Of a stretch of DNA of 38,708 nt, positions 6,098 through 12,269 are shown piece after piece. The DNA is from Desulfobulbaceae bacterium (lineage in GTDB: Bacteria > Desulfobacterota > Desulfobulbia > Desulfobulbales > VMSU01). The notes under the pieces are model-generated. The model was given only the letters and a program-made list of their open reading frames with translations, did no database searches and was not told where the DNA came from. A program made the position numbers and the translations under genes. The stretch covers positions 1 through 38,708 of the forward strand of contig VMSU01000106.1 of NCBI GenBank assembly GCA_013792005.1, in the 5' to 3' direction. Each line of letters begins with the position of its first letter. The stretch's first letter is position 1.

Positions 6098-9000
6098 TCA
6101 CCGTAAATAATCAACCAGGCTGAGTTGCATGGTCTTGGCGGCAGCTGAGAGAGCGGCTTGATAGGCAGTCTCTTTGGCCTTAAGGTCCATGACTGCCTTG
6201 ATCATATCGGTATCTTGCACCTCGGAGAGGTTCTCCTTGGTGGCGATAGTCATGGTGCTGTAAATCTGGCTTTGAATGCTGATGCGATTAGCTCTAGCGC
6301 CGAAGTCAGAGACCTGGCGTGTCAGGTTTTCCATCAGGGTATCGAGGTCGGCAATGGATTTTTCGATGCCGTGACTCTGCATGAATTGGGAACTGACCCC
6401 GGTAGCCTTTAGAAAATTACTGCTGTCGTCGGAAAGTTCAAGGGTGTAGCGGGCCGTGTCGTTGGTTGTAATTATAAGTTTGCCGTCACTCCCCCACGAG
6501 GCGCTGAGGTTTGGGATGCCATTAATGCGGCTGGTCAAACTGTCTAGGGTGTCGACTGCAGGGTTCACAGCGATGGTGATTGATCTGGGGTGTGGGGGGT
6601 AGTAGTCGTGGTCAGTGACCGTTACGGTGAAGGCACCGCTTGAAAACAGGTCTTCTGACGGTAGCTGCGATTTTGGTTCCAGGCCGGTGCCTTTGCTGTT
6701 TAATAAGACTTTGGTGTCGCTGGCGGTATGAATGCCAGTGACTGCGGTGAAGTTCTGGCCCCGCAGGCTGTCTTCTAATGCCTTCAGGGTAGAGAAGATG
6801 GTAGTGTCCATAATCCCGGTCTTACCGTTTTCGCCGATGGTCATGGTGTTTGTCTTGCCGATTTTGATGGCCATGTCGTTGACCCGGTCCCCGGCGTAAC
6901 GGATGGTTCCTGTTCGGTTGTGGACGCTGAATACATCGATCTTGCCGTCACCTGCTGCGTCGTTGGGTTCGCCGCTAGTTGTTTCGCCGCCAGCCAAGCC
7001 AAGGGCTGCTAAGCCGGGCTCCTTGGGGTTGGTCGAGGGGGAGACCGTTTCGAGAATAAATTTCCGATCAGAACGCAATTGCAGTGTCCCAAAAGTGATT
7101 TGGTCGCGTATGCCGCCGGTTAAGTGGGTCACCGCTTCACCATTGGTTGAGGTCTCAATATGCAGGTTGCGTCCATCTATGGCGGTGAGGATGAGACTAC
7201 CATCCTGGCCTCGTGTTGCCTTGACTCCAGTATCGCTGCTCTTGGCGTTGATGGAGTCGAGGAGGGCATTATTCGTGTCTTTGCCGAGGATGGCGGTGGA
7301 AATCGGGATAATGTTGATTCCGTTGATCTTGAGATCACCATTGTTGAGGTATTTGGGGGTCGCCCCGAAGTTGATGGTTCCTGTGCCTGTGGCGGAACTT
7401 AAGCCCAGTTCCGTCAGCACGATATCGGATGGGGGCGCTGTTGCCGGGCTGGTGATAGTAAAGGCGCTGTCCGACTCAAAAGATATTTGACCGGCGTTGT
7501 TGATCCCGCTCACGTTATGGGTGCCGTTGGTCAGGCCACTCATGGCAGGAGCGCCGGCGAGAATGATGCTGTTTTCATTGCCTGCAACTGTATTTCTCAA
7601 AACGATTGAGTTGGTGATTCCACCATTGCTGCCATCGCCGACGAGGGCTGTAAGTCCAGTCTCGCTTGACTTGGCGTTGATGGCGGAGGCGATCTCCGAG
7701 GCGGTAGCCGCTGGAGAGACGCCGCCAGTAGTCAGTGAAATGCTGATGCCGTTAACACTGAAATTGATCGCTTGAGCGCCAGGCGCTGTCGCGGCTACCC
7801 CTGAGGTGTACAGGGTGGTAAGCCGGGCGTAAACCCCAGTGTTGGCGCTTTGTTGATTGATAGCTGTTTGGGCGTTGAAGGCCTTGTCCGGGTTTAAGCC
7901 GTTGGTGGGACCAGCGCCAGCGGCAATGGCCCCGATAATGGTACCATTGATGGCAAGCTCCCCCGCTGCGATACCATTGCTGGTAACTGATCCGGTCAGT
8001 CTCCTGTTTTCGGTCCCGCCGCTTACTGCGCCAAAGGCTGAAACGGATGCTGGTGAGACAACTGCGCTAACGCCAGTCTGGTCTTTGATGCTATTGATGG
8101 CAGATGCTTTGGCCTCGGCAGAGGCGTCGCTATAGGTATTTGAGAGGCCATCGCTTGACAGGGCGGGGACGGTAATGCCGTTGATTAACAGATCACCCGC
8201 GTTTAATGGATATCCATAGAGGAGCGTCCCGTCATTGGCGGTGTCGTAGTTGCCGACATTGCCTCCTCCTAGGCCAATCCGAGTCAAGATGGTGTCATCG
8301 TTGGAAGATGAGGTGATGGTGATAGCGCTTGATGATGACAAGGAAATAGCCCCGGTGTTGTGGGCGCTGTCGGCACCTTGGGAAAGGCCATTGGTCAAAC
8401 CGGTTATGGCCTCTTCGTTGGGAGGGCCGGTTCCGAGTCCGGTCAGGGTGATCGCTGACTCGTCCCCGGCGAGGGTGTTTTTGGGGGTGACGGCGTTGAT
8501 TGGTCCGCCATTGGTTCCGTCTCCTAAGACAGCAGTGACTCCGGTTGCATCGGCAACAGCGTTAATCTGTGAGATTGCTTCTTGAGCAGCCGCTGCCGGC
8601 CCACCTGTCGTTGCTGTGTAGTTAATTGAGACGCCGTTGATAGCAAAGTTGATGTTCTCGCCACCTGCGGCGCCTGCTGAGGCTACCCCGTAAATCTGGG
8701 TGGTAAGGCGAGCCGTGACAGCAGGAATAATCGGGGAGGTGGAAATCGCTGTTTTCAGCTTGCTTGCCCCCGCCATGTTGAGTCCGTTGGTGTTGCCGGC
8801 CCCGTTGAGATCCACCGCTCCGATATCGACCCCATTGATTAAGAGGTCGTTAGCTGCTAAATCGCTGACCGTGGTAGCGGATTCAACTGCGCCCCCGGTT
8901 AAGGCTTGAGGAAGTGGGGTGGGGGATGAGCCGTTAATCCAATACCCGTCCCCTTTGTCGATGATGAAGGGGGTTGGCTCACTTTCGGTGTATCCTTCAG

Positions 9001-9418
9001 TTCGGAAGCCGCCGAAGATGTATTTGCCGTTGATCTGAGTGTTGGCCAGATAGACAGCCTGTTCAAACATGTTTTTTACTTCTTCGGCAATCGCTTCCCG
9101 GTTGGCGGTAGTGTATGCGGGATCGGTGGCTTGGATGGCTAATGTTTTGGCGCGTAGAGCAAGCTCCTTCATTTGGGTCAGGGACGATTCTGCTGAGGTG
9201 ATGATGGTGTTGCCGTGCTGAATATTTTTGGTGTACTGATCCATCTCGACAATGGAGCTGCGGAAGCGCAGGGCGCTGACGAGATTGACCGGTTCGTCCG
9301 AGATCTTGCCCATTTGCATGCCGGAGGAGATCTGTTCGTTGACCTTGGCCATGTCGGTGGTGATCTTGGCCAGGTTGGTATTAATTTTAGAGTAGATGGT
9401 GTTTAAGGTTGTACGCAT
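6098..9418 (-). CDS. flgL: Flagellar hook-filament junction protein FlgL with giant insert
   Basis: Second hook-associated protein (HAP3), joining hook to filament. The N-terminal helical domain (about residues 1-145, MRTTLNTIYSKINTNLAKIT to KYIFGGFRT) and the C-terminal helical domain (about 1020-1106, ending MQLSLVDYLR) are typical. At 1106 aa it is more than twice the usual length. The extra sequence at about 188-770 holds two tandem super-repeats, 188-480 and 484-770. Each contains 'flagellin hook IN'-like units (LLINGVDIG, LAINGTIIG, LLINGITVP, LKINGINII) and an LGDGTNGG / VGDGSNGG block. Related modules occur in FlgK next door. Coding is continuous with no frameshift. It starts 4 bases after the flgK stop and has a weak Shine-Dalgarno, so translational coupling is likely. 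Confidence 0.93.
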   Translation of the reverse strand: MRTTLNTIYSKINTNLAKITTDMAKVNEQISSGMQMGKISDEPVNLVSALRFRSSIVEMDQYTKNIQHGNTIITSAESSLTQMKELALRAKTLAIQATDPAYTTANREAIAEEVKNMFEQAVYLANTQINGKYIFGGFRTEGYTESEPTPFIIDKGDGYWINGSSPTPLPQALTGGAVESATTVSDLAANDLLINGVDIGAVDLNGAGNTNGLNMAGASKLKTAISTSPIIPAVTARLTTQIYGVASAGAAGGENINFAINGVSINYTATTGGPAAAAQEAISQINAVADATGVTAVLGDGTNGGPINAVTPKNTLAGDESAITLTGLGTGPPNEEAITGLTNGLSQGADSAHNTGAISLSSSSAITITSSSNDDTILTRIGLGGGNVGNYDTANDGTLLYGYPLNAGDLLINGITVPALSSDGLSNTYSDASAEAKASAINSIKDQTGVSAVVSPASVSAFGAVSGGTENRRLTGSVTSNGIAAGELAINGTIIGAIAAGAGPTNGLNPDKAFNAQTAINQQSANTGVYARLTTLYTSGVAATAPGAQAINFSVNGISISLTTGGVSPAATASEIASAINAKSSETGLTALVGDGSNGGITNSIVLRNTVAGNENSIILAGAPAMSGLTNGTHNVSGINNAGQISFESDSAFTITSPATAPPSDIVLTELGLSSATGTGTINFGATPKYLNNGDLKINGINIIPISTAILGKDTNNALLDSINAKSSDTGVKATRGQDGSLILTAIDGRNLHIETSTNGEAVTHLTGGIRDQITFGTLQLRSDRKFILETVSPSTNPKEPGLAALGLAGGETTSGEPNDAAGDGKIDVFSVHNRTGTIRYAGDRVNDMAIKIGKTNTMTIGENGKTGIMDTTIFSTLKALEDSLRGQNFTAVTGIHTASDTKVLLNSKGTGLEPKSQLPSEDLFSSGAFTVTVTDHDYYPPHPRSITIAVNPAVDTLDSLTSRINGIPNLSASWGSDGKLIITTNDTARYTLELSDDSSNFLKATGVSSQFMQSHGIEKSIADLDTLMENLTRQVSDFGARANRISIQSQIYSTMTIATKENLSEVQDTDMIKAVMDLKAKETAYQAALSAAAKTMQLSLVDYLR

Positions 9419-9422
9419 GGCG

Positions 9423-12269
9423 TCACCGGGCGAGGGAGTCGAGCAGAGTTTTCAGCATCTCGTCCGAGGTCGAGATCAGCTTGGCTGCTGCGGAATAGGC
9501 GTGTTGATATTTGATGAGATTGGCCATCTCTTCGTCGAGAGATACTCCTGAGGTGGCATCCCTGAGTTCGTTCAATTGGTCATAGACTAGTTTATTGTAT
9601 TCCAGGTCTGAGTTGACGTTTCTGCCCTTGAGACCAATTTCGGCGATCAAGGAGTTGTAGAAGCCGTCTAGGGTGTCGGTGCCGGCGCCAAGGCCTTTGT
9701 AGGTAATGGTTTCATCCCTTTGGATGTTGGTGACCTTGAGGGCATTGCTGTTGTCACCGGCAAATATTTCACCGAATGAGTTCACTTGGCCCGCCGCCAG
9801 ATTATTTAGGTTACCTGAAATGGCCTGGTTGATGCCGATGGTGCTGGCGTTATGGCCGCTGAAGAAGGTGTTGATGCCGATAGCAGCCAGGAAATTTGAG
9901 GTGTCGTTGCCAAAGGCGAAGTTGTGGTTGTTGTCAGGTTTGAGGACCAGTTGATTGGAGACCACAGTGGCGTTGACCCACGGGATATTTTGGTTGGTGG
10001 CGTTCATGATGCTTTTGTTGATAGTGGTGGCGACATCATTTAAGCTATAGGCCCGGGTCAGATCAATGGAGACCGGTTGTGCCAGGGCCAGCGAGCCATC
10101 CTTGTTGTAGAGCCAGAGGTCGAAGCTGCCGCCATCGGTTGCGAGGGTATCTCCATAGTCGAGGCCCATAAGAGAGTTGGCGACTCCGTGATCCGAAAAG
10201 GTATAGCTCAGTTTGCCGTCGCCTGGGTTTTCGTCGGCATTGGCGACCCCGAGCTTGGTGAAGTCTGAGAATCCTAGGATCGTTGCTTCGGCGACGGAGA
10301 CTGAAGATACATGGAGGTCGTTGGTTTCACTGGTGAAAACAATTGAGTTTTGGGAACCTCCATTGGTGCCATCGCCTACCTTGGCCTTGGCACCGGTTGT
10401 GGCGGACCACTTATTGATCTCGGCCACAGCTTTTGTGGCCACGGTATTAGGGGGGTCTCCTGCCGCTACAGTGAAGGTAAGGCTTTTTCCATTCAGGTCA
10501 AAGGTGATGGTTGTGTTGGCGGTTGGAGTGGTGGCAGCTTGATTGCTGTAGGTGACAGTTCCTGCCCAGCCGAGTTCTGCCATGTTGGTGTCATCGGCTC
10601 CGCCATCGATGGCAATCGGACCGTTATTGCTAAAGAGGGAGAGTTCTCCGGTGTTGTGGGCGCTGTCAGCCTGATAGGTCCCGTCGGAGAGTCCGATCTT
10701 GGCTTCGGTAGCGGTGTCGCTCGCGCCACTGATGGTAATCGAAGATTCGTCCCCTTGATTACTGTTCTTGAGGATGATCGAGTTCAGCGCTCCCCCGTTG
10801 GCGCCGTTGCCTACCACTGCGGTGATTGTTACCTTGGGGATATTGGTCTGCGGAGATGTGAGGCCGGTATCGTTATTGTAGCTTGTGATGGCGGTATTGA
10901 TGGCATCGACAAGATGGTTGGCTAATGCCGCTGGGTCGGTATCGTCCGGAGGTCCGGAGATGCTGTCTACGGTATACGAGACGGCAACGCCATTGATGGT
11001 CAAATCGATGACGGAGGCGTTGTCGCCTGCTGCCATGGCGGTTACGGCCTTCCCCGGCACTTGAGTGGTCATTTTTGCCAAGACTCCAGCTGTGGCATTG
11101 TTGATGGCATTGGCCGCATTGGATGTCTTCCCCATGGCTAAACCGTATGTGTTCACGGAGCCATCAATTCTGCCAATACTGCGGCCATTGATTGTCAGGG
11201 ACCCTGCTGACAAAGTGTTGGCTGCTGTTCTGGCGTCGACTGTCGTGTGCAGTAGGGTGGCGTCTTTGGCGTACTCGGCGCTGGTCAGTTCGTCGGAGAA
11301 GCTGACGAGTCCAGCGCCTTGGCTGTGCTGTTGGTTGACCTCGCGGATGAGGGCGTTGGCCAGGGAGTTGATGCGCCCCAGGTAGTTGTTGGGATCTCCC
11401 TCAGCCAATTTCCCGTTGATTTCAAGGAGCCCGCCGATCGAGCCGCCTAAGGCCGCTTTACTGTTCAGGGTAGTCCGGGTGCTATTGCCGTTGGAGTCGA
11501 CGTTGACCCATTGCATAGCGTTGCCGGTCCAGTCCAGCTGCCAGGATTCGTTTTTGGTTACCATGGCGTGCCCGTCGCTCATGAGGACGGTATATGCCCC
11601 ATCTTTTGACTCGAAATGAGTAATGTCAATATACCCGCCCAGCTTGGTGAGGAGGTTGTCCCGGGTGTCTCTGAGGTCATTTTGCTGTTGTTGCGGGGTC
11701 TCCGATGAGGTGATTTTAGTGTTGATGTCGGCCAGTTGTTTGGCCAGAGAATTAACATCCTCGACCGCCGACTTCAAGGAGACGCTGGTGTCGAATTTGG
11801 TCTGGGTGAGTTCGGCGCTCATGCTCTGAAGTTGAGCGTTGAGCAGCTCGGCGTGTTGGACTACGGTGAGGCGGTTGGAGCTGAGTTCCGGGTTGTTGCT
11901 GAGTGATTGCCATGATTCCCAGAATTTGCCCAGTAGTTCGTTGACTGCCAGACCCGGAACTTCGTTAAAGGTGGTTTCAATAACGCGCAACGACTGTTGC
12001 TGGGTAGTAAGGTTGTTGATGGTGGCGTTCTGGTTCATCATGCGTTTAACCATGAACATATCGTACTGTCTGACAACAGATTCGCCGCGGACGCCGTTGC
12101 CAAAAAAGCCGATGCCGGTGGGTGTTGCAACGGAAGTGGCCAAGTCGAGCACTTGGCGGGAATAGCCAGGGGTGTTGACGTTGGCGACATTGTGCCCGGC
12201 AACGGTGATGGCAGCCTGGTGGGTCAGCAACGCCTCCTTGGCTATATTGAGGGTTCCGGCAATGGTCAT
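9423..12269 (-). CDS. flgK: Flagellar hook-associated protein FlgK with repeat-module insert
   Basis: First hook-filament junction protein (HAP1). The N-terminus has the rod/hook signature ITVAGHNVANVNTPGYSRQV. The C-terminus has LDEEMANLIKYQHAYSAAAK and a helical end. At 948 aa it exceeds the usual 450-650 aa. The surplus at about 354-660 is one full copy of the module also seen in FlgL: LTINGRSIG, LTINGVAVSY, VVGNGANGGALNSIILKN and ADSAHNTGELSLFS. A half copy follows with VGDGTNGGSQNSIVF. The insert lies in the surface-exposed region between the conserved ends. One base separates it from the flgN stop. Confidence 0.94.
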   Translation of the reverse strand: MTIAGTLNIAKEALLTHQAAITVAGHNVANVNTPGYSRQVLDLATSVATPTGIGFFGNGVRGESVVRQYDMFMVKRMMNQNATINNLTTQQQSLRVIETTFNEVPGLAVNELLGKFWESWQSLSNNPELSSNRLTVVQHAELLNAQLQSMSAELTQTKFDTSVSLKSAVEDVNSLAKQLADINTKITSSETPQQQQNDLRDTRDNLLTKLGGYIDITHFESKDGAYTVLMSDGHAMVTKNESWQLDWTGNAMQWVNVDSNGNSTRTTLNSKAALGGSIGGLLEINGKLAEGDPNNYLGRINSLANALIREVNQQHSQGAGLVSFSDELTSAEYAKDATLLHTTVDARTAANTLSAGSLTINGRSIGRIDGSVNTYGLAMGKTSNAANAINNATAGVLAKMTTQVPGKAVTAMAAGDNASVIDLTINGVAVSYTVDSISGPPDDTDPAALANHLVDAINTAITSYNNDTGLTSPQTNIPKVTITAVVGNGANGGALNSIILKNSNQGDESSITISGASDTATEAKIGLSDGTYQADSAHNTGELSLFSNNGPIAIDGGADDTNMAELGWAGTVTYSNQAATTPTANTTITFDLNGKSLTFTVAAGDPPNTVATKAVAEINKWSATTGAKAKVGDGTNGGSQNSIVFTSETNDLHVSSVSVAEATILGFSDFTKLGVANADENPGDGKLSYTFSDHGVANSLMGLDYGDTLATDGGSFDLWLYNKDGSLALAQPVSIDLTRAYSLNDVATTINKSIMNATNQNIPWVNATVVSNQLVLKPDNNHNFAFGNDTSNFLAAIGINTFFSGHNASTIGINQAISGNLNNLAAGQVNSFGEIFAGDNSNALKVTNIQRDETITYKGLGAGTDTLDGFYNSLIAEIGLKGRNVNSDLEYNKLVYDQLNELRDATSGVSLDEEMANLIKYQHAYSAAAKLISTSDEMLKTLLDSLAR

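Follow-up and report, generated by a model that had tools for sequence, protein, structure and literature searches.

A probable flagellar outer-domain module common to the hook-filament junction proteins FlgK and FlgL of Desulfobulbales: single in FlgK, variable in number in FlgL

The flgK-flgL locus and its common module

Why should two adjacent genes for hook-filament junction proteins both carry large inserts of one family? The question is raised by a 38,708-nucleotide stretch of DNA (the window) from a Desulfobulbales MAG (genome G000), in which a flagellar cluster lies on the minus strand in the order flgI, flgJ-like, flgN-like, flgK, flgL, csrA-like, and fliW. Thus, flgL directly follows flgK, with flgI and the flgJ- and flgN-like genes upstream and the csrA-like gene and fliW downstream. 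Both reading frames are intact, and their coordinates and lengths (Table 1) are exactly those of the initial annotation. FlgL was identified by TIGR02550 (190.4 bits; curated cut-off, 127.2) and the presence of Flagellin_N and Flagellin_C, and FlgK by TIGR02492 (340 bits; cut-off, 170.75) together with PF22638 (FlgK_D1), PF00460 (Flg_bb_rod), and PF06429 (Flg_bbr_C).

Table 1. Features of the flgK-flgL locus, in window positions, and M-bearing giant proteins of relatives, in positions of their own loci
Feature	Position	Strand	Remarks
flgL	6098..9418	-	1106 aa, predicted hook-filament junction protein; TIGR02550, Flagellin_N, Flagellin_C
FlgL N-terminal D0/D1 helices, residues 1-173	8900..9418	-	Flagellin_N; conserved in all relatives
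FlgL module M1, residues 177-402	8213..8890	-	sequence comparison; AlphaFold pLDDT 92.9
FlgL IN1 domain, residues 403-472	8003..8212	-	found also in module-free FlgL of relatives
FlgL module M2, residues 473-690	7349..8002	-	inserted between IN1 and IN2
FlgL IN2 and tail, residues 691-830	6929..7348	-	core outer domain, weakly M-like; best Flagellin_IN stretch 695-746
FlgL further outer beta region, residues 831-1000	6419..6928	-	kept in all aligned order members
FlgL C-terminal D1/D0 helix, residues 1001-1106	6101..6418	-	Flagellin_C; helix 1010-1105
flgK	9423..12269	-	948 aa, predicted hook-filament junction protein; TIGR02492, FlgK_D1, Flg_bb_rod, Flg_bbr_C
FlgK conserved N-terminal D0/D1, residues 1-340	11250..12269	-	family matches and alignment with relatives
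FlgK full module M, residues 344-575	10545..11240	-	FlgK-type along whole length
FlgK half module (second half of M), residues 576-690	10200..10544	-	M match
FlgK conserved C-terminus, residues 861-948	9426..9689	-	Flg_bbr_C
Giant predicted surface protein L035	3552-10973	-	one M
Giant predicted surface protein L045	3828-9527	+	one M
Giant predicted surface protein L241	1-3834	+	one M

The two super-repeats first noticed in FlgL are real: residues 183 to 482 and 479 to 760 align with 116 of 276 positions identical (42%), and the self-alignment score of 412 compares with a shuffled mean of 81 (SD, 12; z = 28). The similarity claimed between the inserts of the two proteins also held, with FlgK 344 to 570 matching FlgL 178 to 385 at 36% identity (E = 5e-23) and FlgL 480 to 650 at 35% (E = 3e-17), while the FlgK half unit (571 to 690) scored z = 10.5 against FlgL. 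What did not hold was the repeat of about 290 residues as a single unit. With profiles built from the window copies and then refined on relatives, it was split into a module of ca. 220 residues common to both proteins, here called M, and an IN domain of ca. 70 residues that occurs also in the FlgL of relatives without modules. The unit boundaries differ slightly from those first given (Table 1).

In FlgL of the window, a short IN domain thus comes after each of the two copies of M, in the order D0/D1, M1, IN1, M2, IN2 and tail, outer region, and D1/D0. FlgK has, between D0/D1 and the rest of the protein, a full copy followed by the second half of M. The short FlgL proteins of relatives (620 to 690 aa) retain IN1, IN2, and the outer region, which places M1 ahead of IN1, and M2 between the two IN domains. 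The core stretch from IN1 to the tail after IN2 is itself weakly M-like (18 to 47 bits), and an origin of M as a duplicate of the FlgL core domain would fit, a point on which the trees do not decide. As regards the known family Flagellin_IN (PF07196), the whole FlgL passes with 53.7 bits in five stretches, the best of them in core IN2; M1 alone falls below the gathering score (16.9 versus 22.7 bits), and the Pfam search gave no Flagellin_IN match in FlgK.

The inserts are not an assembly artefact, because two-module FlgL proteins recur in relatives at 46 to 60% identity and M is found in both FlgL and FlgK of G013, a genome closed in one contig. A recent tandem duplication was likewise rejected: full-length modules within one protein are at most 59% identical, and no pair of modules in the window exceeds 45%.

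Predicted fold of M and comparison with known outer domains

M was modeled by AlphaFold with a mean pLDDT of 92.9 (85.3 for full-length FlgL), and it is best explained as two alpha/beta IN-like halves that would fold as one unit. The closest PDB structures were the D2/D3 outer domains of flagellins (Pseudomonas 8erm, Campylobacter and Helicobacter FlaA, and Sphingomonas 2zbi), followed by D2-D3 of FliD and Campylobacter FlgL. Foldseek E values against the flagellin outer domains ranged from 8e-6 to 6e-4, but TM-scores were low (0.26 to 0.35) and about half of M superposes on solved outer domains at 4 to 5 Å (ca. 122 columns), so that the link to flagellin D2/D3 rests on E values and half-domain superpositions. 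The models thus point to membership of M in the outer-domain class, short of proven membership in flagellin D2/D3. Like these, M would be an outer domain of an axial protein; unlike flagellin D2/D3, it sits in junction proteins, and the flagellins of the window genome gave no match to it.

Among known junctions, that of Campylobacter (FlgL of 750 to 950 aa and FlgK with a divergent D2; PMC5691160, PDB 9gsx) shares with the one described here an enlarged FlgL with extra outer domains and junction proteins that diverge beside an enlarged hook protein. Here, however, the number of copies of one module in FlgL varies from 0 to about 5 among close relatives, and the FlgL module is related in sequence to that of FlgK. 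A similar outer domain in both proteins has been described in the D2 of Xanthomonas FlgL, which was placed at the outer face of the ring, and that of Burkholderia FlgK, for which quasi-homotypic packing was proposed (PMC6155364). These D2 domains are beta-sandwiches matched by structure over ca. 80 residues, whereas M has ca. 220 residues in two IN-like halves, is matched by sequence, and is repeated.

Distribution of M in the order

M was found in 69 of 219 genomes of Desulfobulbales, and the relatives, sulfur-cycle bacteria represented by MAGs and isolates of this order, bear Desulfobulbaceae and Desulfurivibrionaceae names. Among 395 genomes sampled from the phylum, every strong match fell within Desulfobulbales; of two weak matches elsewhere, one was in a flagellin. 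M is nearly confined to this order. A weaker M-like domain (45 to 52 bits) appeared in the hook protein FlgE of L242, L243, and L244, from another family of the order. One genome (G024) has two complete flgK-flgL pairs (L058 and L059), and both of its FlgL carry a single module. Elsewhere in the phylum (L125, L130, L131, and L132), FlgK of 1263 to 1461 aa stands beside FlgL of 313 to 536 aa, without M, which is the reverse pattern of expansion. In relative G017, a flagellin of 1158 aa (L049:190-3663, minus strand) carries several IN-type repeats.

M also occurs outside the flagellum, once in each of three giant proteins predicted to lie at the cell surface. Two of these, L035 (2474 aa) and L045 (1900 aa), have DUF4347; the third, L241, measures at least 1278 aa. 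In L035 and L045, judging the sequence by eye, M seems to be placed inside another repeat unit, so that it looks like an insertable domain. Its presence in such proteins speaks for a module that binds glycans or surfaces and would make the junction adhesive. This we consider improbable, given that none of 59 modules matched a lectin or carbohydrate-binding family in Pfam and that none of the best fold matches is lectin or carbohydrate binding by name; with the same Pfam result, the glycan-binding junction of the initial annotation loses its footing.

One copy in FlgK, a variable number in FlgL

The two proteins differ in how they carry the module. In every genome read of the M-bearing group, FlgK carries a single full M, to which the second half copy is added in the window's family and in a few lineages besides. 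The number in FlgL runs from 0 to about 5; in a survey of 56 genomes, in which the number was assigned by length class, there were 24 FlgL with no module, 17 with one, nine with two, five with three, and one with four. On the FlgK-core tree of these 56 genomes, the FlgL module number requires at least 25 changes, compared with a shuffled mean of 27.5 and minimum of 23. Changes are thus about as many as with chance labeling, and the number carries little phylogenetic signal. Nor does the FlgK half module track the FlgL module number in phylogenetically independent pairs. A coordinated expansion of the two proteins, one of the two origins first suggested for the common module, is therefore not supported, FlgK having always one full module and FlgL 0 to about 5.

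The variation extends to close relatives, pairs of which differ by whole modules. In L096, L094, L102, and L072, the DNA flanking the locus is about 84 to 93% identical, while FlgL measures 652, 883, 651, and 1232 aa, respectively. Between L079 (FlgL of 1118 aa) and L086 (937 aa), the flanks are 85 to 91% identical and the modules differ, being alignable only in part. In the literature covered, which included few subscription papers, we found no report of FlgL modules in Desulfobulbales.

Exchange between flgK and flgL

The other origin first suggested was gene conversion, and an ongoing process of this kind between the adjacent genes could keep the modules alike. For the window genome this is very unlikely. 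In trees of full modules, all FlgK modules form one clade (support 100/100, and 99* in a second tree), and those of FlgL fall into several position lineages. The FlgK module of the window is of FlgK type all along, with a best FlgK match of 67 to 88% per stretch versus a best FlgL match of 38 to 61%, and permutation tests gave no FlgL-like tract between own-type flanks (p = 0.56 and 0.075); the low identity among the window modules given above also counts against conversion. Clade, stretch matches, and permutation tests together led us to reject conversion in the window genome at the present resolution.

The idea survives in three relatives, L094, L102, and L113, whose FlgK has a clear FlgL-type tract. 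Their FlgK modules have FlgK-type ends and a FlgL-type middle of ca. 110 residues (model positions about 59 to 173), with a permutation p of 5e-5 in each, which is the floor of the test. When a tree was built from the second half of M, the FlgK of L102 and L113 fell inside the FlgL group (98* support). Of the informative sites in L094 FlgK, 52/59 are FlgL-like inside the tract versus 1/37 outside, and nucleotides 1194 to 1578 of its flgK (385 nt) share 74% identity with the flgL of the same genome. The flgK of L102 matches that of L096 at 90% and 83% on either side of the tract, with no match in between. These sequences clearly record an exchange between two flagellar genes, outside the window genome. 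On the core tree, L113 does not lie with L094 and L102, so that the tract has probably also moved horizontally.

When 58 FlgK modules were scanned systematically, no further solid case emerged. A signal in G006 FlgK (p = 0.0005) was rejected, as each scored stretch matched FlgK better than FlgL, and a possible tract in the opposite direction, from FlgK to FlgL, in L081 was weak (p = 0.025 and 0.25). The same literature held no report on conversion between FlgK and FlgL.

Hook protein and flagellins of the window genome

FlgE of the window genome has 951 aa (L063; G000:C191:3086-5938), and in some relatives it has ca. 780 to 830 aa, without about residues 475 to 633. The main flagellin, encoded beside fliD, has 807 aa (G000:C184; L251:171-2591); it contains a long repetitive AGSVI/GST region with a beta-solenoid-like look, the repeats being of another kind than M. 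There are also a second, incomplete flagellin frame of the 807-aa type (G000:C184 and G000:C193; L251 and L252) and a flagellin of 280 aa; a thin filament, as the latter would imply, was rejected with the 807-aa protein as the main flagellin. A second FlgE-like hook protein, with a 705-aa frame (G000:C64:1865-3727), suggests a second flagellar or hook type.

In Campylobacter, FlgK has been proposed to change with an enlarged hook (PMC5691160), and by this precedent the outer domains of FlgK and FlgL could have expanded together with FlgE. The FlgK half module does co-occur with a long FlgE (>900 aa), in 10/13 versus 10/45 genomes (Fisher p = 0.0005, from counts independent of the tree), and G002, of the window's genus, lacks all three enlargements (FlgL, 668; FlgK, 853; FlgE, 782). 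However, accounting for phylogeny leaves only five to six supported independent pairs and no significance, the FlgL module number does not follow the FlgK half modules, and a short FlgE stands alongside a two-module FlgL in G010 and G016. Structural coevolution of the three proteins seems rather unlikely.

A probably exposed module with different fates in the two proteins

Taking the evidence as a whole, the best explanation (probability of roughly 0.7) is that M is an exposed domain of the flagellin D2/D3 kind, ancient in both junction proteins, fixed in FlgK, and variable in FlgL. That the module is common to both and lies in their variable, presumably exposed part agrees with the initial annotation. 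M would have entered both proteins before the M-carrying Desulfobulbales families diverged, and since then, as the trees show, the FlgK and FlgL versions have evolved mostly apart. In FlgK, a single copy became fixed; in FlgL, copies before IN1 and between IN1 and IN2 have come, gone, and been exchanged among relatives, leaving D0/D1 untouched. dN/dS was 0.13 to 0.30 in the modules versus 0.04 to 0.14 in the D0/D1 parts, values that indicate purifying selection on M.

In the assembled flagellum, the FlgK and FlgL rings would carry M outward. With both FlgE and the main flagellin enlarged, M most likely continues the outer layer of the flagellum across the junction, from large hook protein to large flagellin. 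The thick junction of the initial annotation is thus plausible, the same genome encoding an FlgE of 951 aa and a main flagellin of 807 aa. A role in ring packing may be proposed for the fixed FlgK copy, although fixation alone is no proof of it; the likeness of FlgL D2 to FlgK D2 has been noted, and packing between them suggested, elsewhere (PMC6155364). Because the FlgL modules are often absent, a working junction presumably cannot depend on them as a rule, and they would most likely be a changeable surface, dispensable and open to diversification. Such a surface might, for instance, help the cell to escape phages that bind its flagella or to move in viscous media; flagellin outer domains can dimerize and change motility in viscous settings (PMC8931119).

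A more radical proposal, which we regard as possible but doubtful, is that the Desulfobulbales junction is a hypervariable surface organ, in which M, as an insertable module known also from giant surface proteins, would be shuffled into and out of FlgL and occasionally moved into FlgK, at rates resembling those of flagellin surface domains, under diversifying pressure on the exposed junction, e.g., from phage attachment.

With module numbers this variable, the length of FlgL is of little use as a family marker in Desulfobulbales. Outer domains of flagellin are hypervariable, and it is for flagellin that such variability is usually discussed; here a low-copy protein, FlgL, differs between close relatives by large modules that are gained, lost, and swapped. 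In the Salmonella junction, FlgL was modeled as 11 copies (PMC12221982). The flagellar surface would thus be more variable at the junction than expected, and in one instance the DNA itself records an exchange between different flagellar genes.
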